Below, piece by piece: positions 1 through 3,275 of a DNA stretch of 42,852 nucleotides. The DNA is taken from the NCBI GenBank assembly GCA_001797615.1, contig MGPV01000023.1, forward strand, positions 1 through 42,852, given 5' to 3'. Each line of letters opens with the position of its first letter. Within the stretch, counting starts at the first letter, position 1. This stretch comes from Deltaproteobacteria bacterium GWC2_65_14 (GTDB lineage Bacteria; Desulfobacterota; Deferrimicrobia; Deferrimicrobiales; Deferrimicrobiaceae). The notes beneath the pieces are model-generated. The model was not told the DNA's origin and did no database searches. It worked only from the letters and a program-made list of their open reading frames with translations. The translations under genes and the position numbers were made by a program.

Positions 1-319
1 GTCCCCGGAAGGGTTTCGTCGCGAGACAAGGGAGACCCGAGGCGAGGCGGGCAAGCGCAGGAGCGAGCGCGGAGGCGTACGGTCAGTACGCCGCACAAGC
101 GAGCGACGAGCACGCCCGACGCAGCCCGGGGATCGCTTGTCGCAGCAGAAAAGGCAGCCCTGGCGACCGGCGCCTGCGGCTCGGTCTGCACCGCCAGCCC
201 TTTGTCGGACTCCCTGCGCCCGGCTCGGCGTACCGGAAGTACGCCTTCGCCGTGCTCGGTCGTCCTTCGCGGTCTGACGGCGCATCCGCTTCGCCTCGGC
301 TGCCGACCCTTCCGGGGAC
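1..319. repeat. Quasi-palindromic repeat pair (two inverted units)
   Basis: Two units of about 150 bp face each other around a centre near position 160. The outer boxes are GTCCCCGGAAGGGT at 1-14 and its exact reverse complement at 306-319. Each unit then carries, after 59-60 nt, the same perfect hairpin stem GGCGTAC/GTACGCC with a 5-nt loop, at 74-92 and 227-245. The sequence between boxes and hairpins is diverged but similar in composition. No convincing gene lies here; short open frames on both strands are by-products of high GC. The structure resembles REP/BIME-type dispersed elements or a small non-autonomous element. That identity is inferred; the symmetry is seen directly. Confidence 0.6.
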
Positions 320-358
320 AGGCCCCTCGCGCCAGCTTCGTTGCGCTTCTTGCGCAGG

Positions 359-405
359 GGGGGACACTCTTGGTTTTCTCGCTGATCACACAAAGAGTGT
401 CCCCC
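359..405. repeat. Perfect 13-bp inverted repeat (GGGGGACACTCTT)
   Basis: GGGGGACACTCTT at 359-371 is repeated as its exact reverse complement at 393-405, around a 21-nt loop. No T-run follows, so it is not a classic terminator. GGGGACA/TGTCCCC-ended palindromes of this kind commonly occur as REP-like elements mobilised by REP-associated tyrosine transposases. No such transposase is in the window. It lies 98 bp upstream of dapB and could insulate dapB from upstream transcription. Confidence 0.6.
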
Positions 406-441
406 GCCATCCTCAGTCGCGCGCCTCGCTGGCGCGGCGCA

Positions 442-494
442 TCGACGCTCTCGGTGCCTCAAGCTATTTACGAGACGGTACACTAGGGGAGGAG
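442..494 (+). promoter_or_regulatory. Weak candidate promoter and RBS of dapB
   Basis: The stretch 406-502 has no gene. A poor -35-like TCGACG (442-447) is followed after 17 bp by TATTTA (465-470); a TACACT (479-484) is another possible -10. Neither is a strong match. A good Shine-Dalgarno sequence, AGGGGAGGAG (485-494), sits 8 nt before the dapB ATG and fixes that start. Confidence 0.25.
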
Positions 495-502
495 ACCCGG
501 GC

Positions 503-1306
503 ATGGCGAAGGTCGTGGTGTGCGGCGCGATGGGGAGGATGGGGAAGGCGATCCTCTCGGTGCTCGCGGGCAGCCCCCGCGTGTTCTCCCTCGCGGCCGC
601 GGTGGAAACGCCGGGGCACCCGATGCTCGGACGGGACGCCTTCGAGGCCGCGGGGGCGGGGAAGGCCGGGATCCCGGTGACGGCGGATTTTCCCGGGGCG
701 ATCGCCGGCGCGGACGTGGCGATCGATTTCACCCATCCCGCCTCCTCCGTCGGCCACGCGCGGGAGGCGGCCTCCGCGGGGAAGCCGATCGTCATCGGGA
801 CCACGGGGCTCTCGCCGGAGCAGACCGGGGAGATCCGGGAGGCGGCGAAGTGGATCGCCTGCGTCCTCTCCCCGAACATGAGCGTCGGGGTGAACCTGAT
901 GTTCCAGGTGGCGGCGGACGTCGCGCGGACCCTCGGAGAGGAGTTCGACGTGGAGATCGTCGAGGTCCATCACCGCTTCAAGAAGGACTCCCCCTCCGGC
1001 ACGGCGGTGAGGCTGGCCGACGCGGTGGCAGGCGCACTGGGGCGCGAGATGCGGGAGGCGGGCGTCTACGGCCGGCAGGGGATCGTGGGGGAGCGCACGA
1101 AGCGGGAGATCGGGGTCCTCGCGGTCCGGGCGGGAGACGTCGTGGGGGAGCACACGGTGATCTTCGGCGGGATCGGGGAGCGCTTCGAGATCACCCACCG
1201 TGCGCACAGCCGGGACACCTTCGCGAGAGGGGCGGTCCGTGCAGCCGGCTGGGTACTCGGCAGGCCCGCCGGCCTCTATGACATGAAATCGGTGCTGGGG
1301 CTGTAA
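503..1306 (+). CDS. dapB: 4-hydroxy-tetrahydrodipicolinate reductase DapB
   Basis: Reduces 4-hydroxy-tetrahydrodipicolinate to tetrahydrodipicolinate with NAD(P)H in cytoplasmic lysine/diaminopimelate synthesis. The 267-residue length is normal. The N-terminal Rossmann loop GAMGRMG (residues 8-14) and the family signature EVHHRFKKDSPSGTA, with its catalytic histidine and lysine, are both present. The ATG is preceded by a strong AGGGGAGGAG site. It starts a tightly packed run with a FAH-family gene (4-bp gap) and dapL, which uses the DapB product directly, so the pathway context is coherent. dapA is not in the window; it would be upstream of the repeat cluster or elsewhere. Confidence 0.97.
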   Translation: MAKVVVCGAMGRMGKAILSVLAGSPRVFSLAAAVETPGHPMLGRDAFEAAGAGKAGIPVTADFPGAIAGADVAIDFTHPASSVGHAREAASAGKPIVIGTTGLSPEQTGEIREAAKWIACVLSPNMSVGVNLMFQVAADVARTLGEEFDVEIVEVHHRFKKDSPSGTAVRLADAVAGALGREMREAGVYGRQGIVGERTKREIGVLAVRAGDVVGEHTVIFGGIGERFEITHRAHSRDTFARGAVRAAGWVLGRPAGLYDMKSVLGL

Positions 1307-1310
1307 CGGG

Positions 1311-2075
1311 ATGAAGATCGGGCGGTACGAATCGGACGGAAGGATTTCGTTCGGAATCGTCGACCCGAAAGGGGGGACCGTCCGGGAGATCGACGGAGCC
1401 CCGTTCGACGGGATCCGGGAAACGGGCGCAGTCCGGCGTCTTTCGGAGGTCCGCCTTCTCGCCCCTGTCGCTCCCACGAAGATCGTCGCGGTGGGGCTGA
1501 ACTACCGGGACCATGCGAAGGAGATGGGGAAGAAGATCCCCGAGGAGCCGCTGATCTTCCTCAAGGCCCCCTCCGCCCTGAACCGTCCCGGCGGGGACGT
1601 GGTCTACCCGGCCGCCTCCCGCCGCGTGGACTACGAGGCGGAGCTGGCCGTCGTCATCGGGAAGAGGGCGAAGGACGTACGGGAAAGCGAAGCCCCCTCG
1701 GTGATTCTGGGGTACACCGGCATCAACGACGTGACCGCCCGGGACCTCCAGGCGAAGGACGGGCTCTACGCCCGCGCGAAGGGGTTCGACACCTTCGCCC
1801 CGCTGGGGCCCTGGATCGAGACGGAGCTGGACCCGTCCGGGCTTTCCGTCCGCTGCACCGTGAACGGCGTGGTGCGCCAGGACGGGAACACCCGGGAGAT
1901 GGGGGCCTCGGTGTTCCGGCTCGTGGAGTTCATCTCGCACGTCATGACCCTCCTCCCGGGCGACGTCATCGCGACGGGGACTCCCCCCGGCGTGGGCCCC
2001 GTGCAGGTGGGCGACGAGATGACGGTCGAGATCGAGGGGATCGGCAGGCTCACGAACCGGATCGTCGCGCAGTAA
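1311..2075 (+). CDS. Fumarylacetoacetate hydrolase (FAH) family protein
   Basis: A 254-residue FAH-fold protein. It has a short N-terminal domain (about 1-50) and the catalytic barrel after it. Family motifs are KAPSALNRPG, the metal-ligand region YEAELAVVIG, GYTGINDVTARDLQ and GDVIATGTPPGVG. Members cleave C-C bonds of acylpyruvates, isomerise hydroxy-dienedioates or decarboxylate oxaloacetate; the sequence does not say which. It sits between dapB and dapL with 4-bp and 30-bp gaps, so it should be co-transcribed with lysine genes. A housekeeping role on oxaloacetate- or pyruvate-derived compounds is possible but is inference. Confidence 0.9.
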   Translation: MKIGRYESDGRISFGIVDPKGGTVREIDGAPFDGIRETGAVRRLSEVRLLAPVAPTKIVAVGLNYRDHAKEMGKKIPEEPLIFLKAPSALNRPGGDVVYPAASRRVDYEAELAVVIGKRAKDVRESEAPSVILGYTGINDVTARDLQAKDGLYARAKGFDTFAPLGPWIETELDPSGLSVRCTVNGVVRQDGNTREMGASVFRLVEFISHVMTLLPGDVIATGTPPGVGPVQVGDEMTVEIEGIGRLTNRIVAQ

Positions 2076-2105: not shown

Positions 2106-3275
2106 ATGACCCGATTTACCCTGTCCGGGCGGATCCAGGCCCTTCCGCCCTACCTGTTCGCCGAGATCGACCGGAAGAAGCAGGAAGTCCGGGCCCGCGG
2201 AATGGACATCATCGACCTGGGCGTGGGAGACCCCGACCGCCCGACCCCGAAATTCATCGTGGACCGGATGAAGCGGGAGGCGGCCGTCCCGGCGAACCAC
2301 CGGTATCCCTCGTACGAGGGGCTCCCGGCCTTCCGGGACGCGGCGGCAAAGTGGTACCGGCGGCGGTTCGGCGTTGCGCTGGATCCCGCCTCCGAGGTGG
2401 TCGCCCTGATCGGCTCGAAGGAGGGGATCGCCCACTTCCCGATGGCCTTCGTGAACCCGGGGGATGTCGTGCTCGTCCCCGACCCCGGGTATCCCGTCTA
2501 CCACATCGCCACGATGTTCGCCGGAGGGAAGTCCCACCTCCTCCCCCTGCTGCGCGAGAACGGGTTCCTCCCCGAACTGGAGCGGATTCCCGCCTCCGCG
2601 CTGCGGAAGGCGAAGATCCTTTTCCTGAACTACCCGAACAATCCCACCTCGGCGGTGGCGGACCGGGCCTTCTACCGGAAGGTGCTGCGCTTCGCGGAGG
2701 CGCACGACCTGATCGTCGCGCACGACGTCGCCTATACGGAGATCTACTTCGGCGACGAGAAGCCGATGAGCATTCTCGACCTGCCGGGGGCGAAGAAGCG
2801 GTGCATCGAGTTCCACTCCCTCTCCAAGACCTACAACATGACCGGGTGGAGAATCGGGTTCGCGGTGGGGAACCCCGACCTGGTCGCGGGGCTCGGGAAG
2901 GTCAAGACGAACGTGGACAGCGGCGTGTTCCAGGCGATCCAGGGGGCGGCGATCGCCGCGCTGACGGAGGGGGACGCGGCGGCGGAAGCGATCCGGAAGG
3001 TCTACCAGGAGCGGCGGGACCTGCTGGTCCCGGGACTGCGCGCGCTGGGGCTCGACCCGGTCGACCCGAAGGCCACCTTCTACGTCTGGATCCCCGTGCC
3101 GAAGGGATACGGCTCGGCCTCCTTCTGCACCCACCTGCTGACCAACGCGGGGATCGTGACCACCCCGGGGAACGGGTTCGGCCGGAGCGGGGAGGGGTAT
3201 GTCCGGATCGCCCTGACGCAGGAGAAGGGGCGGCTCCGGGAGGCGCTCGACCGGATGAAGCGGATCGGGTTCTGA
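2106..3275 (+). CDS. dapL: LL-diaminopimelate aminotransferase DapL
   Basis: A PLP-dependent class I/II aminotransferase that converts tetrahydrodipicolinate to LL-diaminopimelate in one glutamate-dependent step, bypassing DapD/C/E. It has 389 residues, the usual length. Visible features are the N-terminal substrate region (DLGVGDPDRPTP, 37-48), the NYPNNPT motif (175-181) and the PLP lysine K241 in SLSKTYNMTGWRIG. Linkage to dapB favours DapL over a generic aspartate aminotransferase. The ATG at 2106 follows an AAGGGAGA site. DapL is typical of Desulfobacterota, Chlamydiae, cyanobacteria and some archaea. Confidence 0.92.
   Translation: MTRFTLSGRIQALPPYLFAEIDRKKQEVRARGMDIIDLGVGDPDRPTPKFIVDRMKREAAVPANHRYPSYEGLPAFRDAAAKWYRRRFGVALDPASEVVALIGSKEGIAHFPMAFVNPGDVVLVPDPGYPVYHIATMFAGGKSHLLPLLRENGFLPELERIPASALRKAKILFLNYPNNPTSAVADRAFYRKVLRFAEAHDLIVAHDVAYTEIYFGDEKPMSILDLPGAKKRCIEFHSLSKTYNMTGWRIGFAVGNPDLVAGLGKVKTNVDSGVFQAIQGAAIAALTEGDAAAEAIRKVYQERRDLLVPGLRALGLDPVDPKATFYVWIPVPKGYGSASFCTHLLTNAGIVTTPGNGFGRSGEGYVRIALTQEKGRLREALDRMKRIGF

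Follow-up and report, generated by a model that had tools for sequence, protein, structure and literature searches.

Families of MITEs are usually recognised by their common ends, while their middles drift or are lost. In the Correia elements (NEMIS) the ends are TA-adjacent and the inner hairpin is of a GTAC type. IS630-family elements are described as inserting at TA and duplicating it, and the cited passages of the same source attribute to Tenzen and Ohtsubo (1991) a preference of IS630 for CTAG (PMC2170065). For Geobacter metallireducens, the cited passages of PMC2700814 describe multicopy short elements (its Additional file 4) with a central palindrome, GRCGTAGCGCTGCTACGCC. According to these passages, dapAB and dapL have one such copy between them, and lysine and arginine genes are preceded by copies. 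The review PMC10969869, in its passage on Geobacter uraniireducens, describes the Chunjie MITE, 178-235 bp long, with many intergenic copies and one within an operon. Our literature search, which covered the present sequence as well as comparable families of this bacterial group, returned the Geobacter papers only.

Here we describe a palindromic element at the start of a window of 42,852 nt, which is the whole stretch of DNA analysed, from a genome of 2.26 Mb in 67 contigs. We propose, with a probability of roughly 70%, that it is a nested, non-autonomous, MITE-like element in the dap operon, which would be moved in trans by a transposase of the IS630/Tc1-mariner type.

Layout of the element, its insertion site and its copies

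The repeats described in the earlier note belong to a palindromic, non-coding element of 538 bp, of which window positions 1-485 cover the larger part. The length includes both copies of TA, and the left end lies on other contigs. When the source genome is searched first with window 1-420 and next with a 166-bp relative that occurs dispersed, three layers can be separated: a frame (E1), a second palindrome in the left arm of this frame (E2) and a hairpin at its apex (E3), see Table 1.

The local features that had been pointed out are all present. The end boxes of E2 are exact complements, and the two 7-bp stems are identical with changed loops. Box and hairpin are separated by 59 nt on one side (15-73) and by 60 nt on the other (246-305), and perfect 13-bp arms, GGGGGACACTCTT and AAGAGTGTCCCCC, are found at 359-371 and 393-405, 39 nt past the end of the quasi-palindrome. 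Folded as single-stranded DNA, positions 1-319 have a z of -4.25 against shuffles, with 0 of 100 as low. Further, 14 distinct copies (319-325 bp) align from five genomes, so the quasi-palindrome is not due to chance.

Table 1. Features at the start of the window and in the adjoining contigs (positions are those of the window unless a contig is named).
Feature	Position	Strand	Remark
E2, 319-bp quasi-palindrome nested in the left arm of E1	1-319		14 distinct copies
Outermost bases of E2	before base 1 (contigs C12/C16)		AGGGGGCCG
Sequence after E2	320-327		AGGCCCCT
E2 left end box	1-14	+	GTCCCCGGAAGGGT
E2 right end box	306-319	-	exact complement of 1-14
Hairpin, left half of E2	74-92		GGCGTAC-GGTCA-GTACGCC
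Hairpin, right half of E2	227-245		GGCGTAC-CGGAA-GTACGCC
E1 copy, right part	320-485	+	match to covariance model R1 at 308-457 (42 bits, E 2.8e-8)
E1 copy, left part	start of contig C16, reversed		52 bp, including the first E2 bases
E3, 45-bp REP-like hairpin at the apex of E1	360-404		GGGGACACTCTT-N21-AAGAGTGTCCCC
E1 right terminal inverted repeat	465-485	-	TATTTACGAGACGGTACACTA; ends in TA, presumably the duplicated target
Presumed dapB (dihydrodipicolinate reductase)	503-1306	+	first gene past the element
Presumed fumarylacetoacetate-hydrolase-like ORF	1311-2075	+	same gene run as dapB
Aminotransferase, probably LL-diaminopimelate aminotransferase (dapL)	2106-3275	+	

The gene names in the table are our own assignments. 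We take the first gene to be dapB from a reading of its protein and from the adjacency to dapA in relatives; the second is named from its sequence, and the third is presumably dapL from a reading of the sequence. A relative of this aminotransferase, at 49% identity, is present in locus L193.

The first base of the window is the edge of its contig (G000:C23:1), and the feature is therefore truncated on the left. Contig C23 begins inside E2, passes the right end of E1 and then reaches dapB. Contig C16, when reversed, closes with dapA and then 52 bp from the start of an E1 copy, which continues into E2. Contig C12 finishes in the left half of another copy of E1 with E2, and window 1-37 is identical to the 37 bp at the end of that contig. 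In the comparison genomes dapA is adjacent to dapB in 23 of 25 dapB loci, with a gap of 11-32 nt between alignment ends; the other two are our own contig edge (L041) and a contig-start fragment (L064), in whose genome the pair is found on L065. Given that the relatives keep dapA and dapB as neighbours, and given the edges of C16 and C23, we infer that these two contigs join, which places the 538-bp element between the two genes. The insert is missing from all 23 relatives, whose sequences differ within the dapA-dapB gap.

The source genus holds this genome only, and therefore genomes of the family and of the phylum were used for comparison. Matches to window 1-485 are present in 20 of the 24 family genomes, the exceptions being G002, G003, G019 and G021. 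Complete or near-complete composites of E1 and E2, about 497-541 bp long, occur in the source genome (G000) and in G001, G005, G006 and G007, and partial ones in G008. In the last four of the five they are contiguous inside contigs and match the composite reconstructed here. The closest is L145 (G005), 541 bp long and 94.3% identical, E3 included. Since they have the same flanks, L142 (G001, without E3) and L145 (with E3) represent one site in two genomes. Two composites of G001, L143 (G001:C1) and L144 (G001:C30), have a common left flank and unlike right flanks, which would reflect either recombination between copies or a mis-join.

The 14 copies of E2 belong to three genera and are 91-99% identical (median 96%), while dapB of the source genome is 76-79% identical to the others. 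This difference argues for recent movement of non-coding DNA between genera; the alternative would be a strong constraint on the E2 sequence. Copies that combine E1 and E2 occupy several sites in genera related to the source, and the spreading unit would thus be the composite rather than E2 by itself. No target duplication for E2 can be recognised within E1. The right half of E2 scores 12.5 bits (E 0.69) with model R1, a test that does not show homology of the E2 halves to E1. A coding role for E2 was considered, as its frames are GC-rich and often stop-free, and was rejected: the copy lengths of 319, 322, 323 and 325 do not differ by multiples of three, and therefore no reading frame is kept.

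Ends, target site and proposed mobilisation

On its own E1 is a long imperfect hairpin of 161-166 bp, with terminal inverted repeats, TAGTGCACCGTCTCGCAAATA and TATTTACGAGACGGTACACTA, located at TA and mostly within CTAG. In the source genome it is 166 bp long on C27 and C53, and diverged copies are found on C66, C54, C34 and C42. The whole of E1 folds into one imperfect hairpin, with an energy near -80 kcal/mol under RNA parameters. A search of six genomes for the end pattern gives 57 forward and 61 reverse matches, and none for the control.

In the loci examined, TA abuts 71 of 84 distinct ends of type A, and CTA abuts 55 of them. Among complete type-A elements (n=29), TA is present on both sides in 20, and C before it plus G after it in 21; at least one side has no TA in the remaining nine. 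As judged from the flanking TA, this is presumably a duplicated target. At one locus (L331:1-160, G005:C53) two E1 ends abut with one common CTAG, as if one element had entered the edge of another.

The suggestion of a mobile repetitive unit is thus borne out by copies in several genera, by ends at TA or CTAG and by the dapA-dapB site of the relatives, which has no insert. The element is short and non-coding and has terminal inverted repeats, flanking TA and multiple dispersed copies, as a MITE does. Insertion at TA, preferably within CTAG, is the pattern of the IS630/Tc1-mariner group, on which the element probably depends.

The mechanism that we propose has E1 as the frame, its repeats TAGTGCACCGTCTCGCAAATA...TATTTACGAGACGGTACACTA being seated at TA, usually within CTAG, and an IS630/Tc1-mariner-type transposase that would act on these ends in trans. 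The left arm of E1 carries E2 and the apex E3, and the composite would spread as a unit. The long palindrome would be maintained at the DNA level, at least partly by conversion from arm to arm. An autonomous DDE partner of E1 would be expected to be bordered by TAGTGNACCGTCTCGNAAATA. DDE_3 transposases are found in five of the 24 family genomes, the source genome not being one of them, and 0 of 9 are flanked by E1 ends. Nor is there an autonomous partner among the listed pairs of terminal inverted repeats in six genomes, where the one inverted pair of 859 bp encloses rpsP between two other MITEs and no transposase.

Covariation, the E3 hairpin and alternative readings

We aligned 27 solo E1 cores from the family, 111-114 nt long, nearly all gathered by similarity in the right arm and one (L091) by the hairpin. 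Of the 37 predicted pairs, eight show changes on both sides. None of 500 shuffles reaches the covariation of the alignment (0.112, against 0.056 in shuffles), and the signal is lost when the partners are shifted. According to the earlier note, its proposal would fall if there were neither other copies in the genome nor covariation; this was not the outcome.

A structured RNA in the dapA-dapB message (an attenuator, an RNase III site or a riboregulator), conserved for its RNA fold, would also fit the compensatory changes in eight of 37 pairs and the covariation above all 500 shuffles. Further, the Geobacter metallireducens family, with its similar palindrome, is annotated as predicted short RNAs in the cited passages (PMC2700814), and in our sample of named genomes the element adjoins dapA (L198) and dapL (L193). 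We nevertheless regard this explanation as improbable. Wobble changes are equally frequent on both strands: transient mismatches are G.T in seven pair columns and A.C in seven, so this test does not support strand-specific (RNA) selection. Three fixed T.G pairs were set aside in that count, as the folding program permits G.T but not A.C; a fixed C.A mismatch exists (columns 12, 105). In addition, the dapA-dapB insertion is missing in 23 of 23 relatives, and copies of the element occupy unrelated sites. A scan of Rfam 15 gave no family above its gathering threshold (the best hit has 25.3 bits, with 68 required), and no sigma-70-like promoter was found in window 1-520, nor one for dapB within the element.

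The association with dap genes was spotted post hoc. When 144 hairpin loci were tested with the dapA, dapB and dapL proteins, these two direct neighbours were found; by our own arithmetic the number expected for 132 hits is about 0.3. A recurrent lysine-gene neighbourhood of the hairpin elements is weakly indicated. The places in question are window 485-503, L193:7127-7150 (after dapL) and L198:6361-6384 (before dapA).

One further locus bears on how the pairing is kept. In L127:1529-1642, a sequence of like length that was excluded from the core alignment since its right arm is rewritten, the right arm of E1 is the complement of the left arm over CCAGCTTCGTTGC. This suggests repair of the palindrome at the DNA level, by arm-to-arm conversion. 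Such repair explains the covariation without any RNA function, and a functional RNA is therefore not shown. It had been proposed that the conserved stems with changed loops mark a functional structure: what stands is that compensatory changes keep the pairing, equally on both strands.

The RNA explanation aside, the earlier note had also considered a REP-like unit, mobilised by a REP-associated tyrosine transposase (RAYT). For this possibility E3 has to be described. It is a hairpin, GGGGACACTCYT-N21-ARGAGTGTCCCC, of 45 bp in all ten distinct matched copies, although the search pattern allowed 32-64 bp. E3 substitutes the apical hairpin of E1 in the dap composite and in C42, and it is at or near the E1 apex in L113, L119, L135, L136, L154 and L309, from four other genomes (in L119, L136 and L309 its position is read from the flanks only). 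It is also solitary on C49, C17 and C25, in genes as well as in intergenic regions. One copy lies inside clpB (G000:C17:109556-109603; L007:1500-1547), where the frame stays open and about 11-14 residues are added. Inserts related to E3 are found at the matching place of clpB in G001 and G005, and are absent from 19 of 22 aligned ClpB loci.

A constant hairpin that is found alone in this way speaks for a REP-type unit. The start of E3, GGGGACAC, fits the GGGGWSAS of repeats flanking RAYT-like genes in the cited passages (PMC3733652) in 10 of 10 distinct copies, a string that belonged to the search pattern. The search for a RAYT gene that had been suggested finds two Y1_Tnp genes in the source genome, one of them RAYT-like. 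All of these points apply to E3 only, and for the element as a whole we consider mobilisation by such a transposase quite unlikely. E1 and E2 are far longer, E1 has inverted ends at TA, and neither has a GTAG or CGTC tag; on inspection none of E1, E2 and E3 is a 20-40 bp palindrome with such a tag, as in a REPtron. Nor is the RAYT gene flanked by the repeat in question: the RAYT-like gene on C13 is flanked by an unrelated repeat, AACCGGGACGTTCCT, and its 3.5-kb locus contains no GGGGACA, so that E3 is not seen as a gene flank there either. The REP-like label thus fails for E1 and E2; for E3 the resemblance to GGGGWSAS repeats holds, and no adjoining RAYT-like gene was found in the source genome.

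The two Y1_Tnp loci were examined as a source of E1 and E2 and explain neither. At G000:C13 (L026, reverse strand) the RAYT-like Y1 transposase ORF lies between inverted copies of AACCGGGACGTTCCT. At G000:C6:10653-11018 (L016) an IS200-type transposase gene is located beside a divergent ORF that, read by eye, is TnpB-like.

Finally, a palindrome arising from a collapsed or chimeric contig edge is very hard to credit. The first base of the window does coincide with a contig edge, and the ends of three contigs (C12, C16, C23) fall within the element. But repeats like this break assemblies, and other genomes have the structure of 500-541 bp uninterrupted within their contigs (L141, L142, L143, L145, L151, L153), which largely refutes an artefact.

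A conserved core under differing ends, and the known systems

Returning to the MITE-like element, we find within the family one E1 core under different ends. L155 and L156, from one genome, have cores that are 99% identical and identical right ends, but left ends of 42% identity. L148 has a left end of type A and a right end of type B. The end types, whose classification is rough (four mismatches allowed), are not equally distant: A and B, 62-69% alike in one comparison, may be diverged relatives, while C ends have no recognisable likeness to either. At L330:786-1648 (G001:C14) rpsP lies between two MITEs whose ends resemble types A and B and whose core is quite different.

The hairpin itself is widespread. 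A search of the genome for it had been suggested in the earlier note; in the assembled genome GGCGTAC-N5-GTACGCC matches on this contig only, and nowhere else. In the phylum it is present in 51 of 395 genomes, with up to 27 matches per genome, against at most one in any genome for the control. The extended motif TGC-GGCGTAC-N5-GTACGCC-TC is found in at least 120 stretches of named genomes, where about two would be expected by chance (own arithmetic). Among the matches listed, the hosts are mostly Deltaproteobacteria, though such proportions mean little; the others include Polyangiaceae, Methylomirabilota, Rokubacteria, Gemmatimonadetes and Acidobacteriota.

To study the flanks we used 123 distinct matches with full flanks out of the 149 listed, 26 being dropped as duplicates or cut short. 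Among these matches CGTTGC stands left of the hairpin in 53 (shuffled mean 3.8) and CGCCTTG right of it in 67 (shuffled mean 1.1). Both motifs are present in E1. Several unlike types are seen among the outer arms of the listed matches, and 66 of the 123 are unassigned by our rough patterns. For 34 phylum loci that had been selected with the hairpin pattern, model R1 gives E-values of 2.8e-5 (L107), 0.002 (L068) and 0.023 (L094/L106, one site), and nothing below 0.05 in the remaining 30. The covariance model thus gives modest support to homology of the E1 core with the phylum hairpin loci. Near-tandem copies of the hairpin element occur in one genome (L285), and in L213 the hairpin is doubled, 31 bp apart. 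The element is also present in 13 stretches of IMG/VR contigs (L290-L302), most of them with ends of the GATGGCTTC or GACGGCTTC type.

These observations allow a broader and clearly tentative idea, to which we give less credence than to its being wrong: a superfamily across phyla in which the inner core (about CGTTGC...TGC-GGCGTAC-N5-GTACGCC-TC...CGCCTTG) would be inherited and the ends swappable. The core would move between MITE families by recombination, take the ends that resident transposases use, and be kept through recognition by a factor of the host or of the transposon, perhaps with a preference for operons of amino-acid biosynthesis such as dap. A conserved middle with differing ends, within one family and across phyla, is the reverse of the usual MITE pattern. 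Should the core prove to be a module more durable than its ends, many palindromic repeats of deltaproteobacterial genomes, a large and so far unexplained class, would be accounted for, and one would have to ask what its recogniser is. In a search of the openly accessible literature, we found no description of a conserved core with exchangeable ends.

It should be noted that several of the comparisons with known systems are by description only. With IS630/Tc1-mariner elements (ISY100, cited passages of PMC2170065) E1 has in common the duplicated TA target and, for IS630, the CTAG preference; unlike them, it is without a transposase gene, and no partner with E1 ends was found. E3 resembles the repeats of the RAYT-like TIRYT genes in that GGGGACAC fits GGGGWSAS (cited passages of PMC3733652), and differs in being seen without an adjoining transposase gene. 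The Correia elements of Neisseria, compared by their description in PMC10969869, are likewise palindromic MITEs near genes; for them both promoters and processing by RNase III have been demonstrated, but not for the E1 element.

The Geobacter metallireducens family, again compared by description, resembles E1 in being dispersed and intergenic and in being centred on a 7-bp stem with a 5-base loop. It also belongs to the same broad bacterial group and has one copy in a dapA-dapB-dapL run. Its stem ends in GTAG/CTAC, against GTAC/GTAC here, and the family is annotated as predicted RNA; the cited passages give no ends or target, unlike what is seen for E1. For Chunjie, the description in the review (PMC10969869) has no conserved core with varying ends, in contrast to E1. 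As described there, it is like the present element a short MITE with many copies, one of them in an operon. A 538-bp hairpin in an essential biosynthetic operon is a testable case of how far operons tolerate such inserts.
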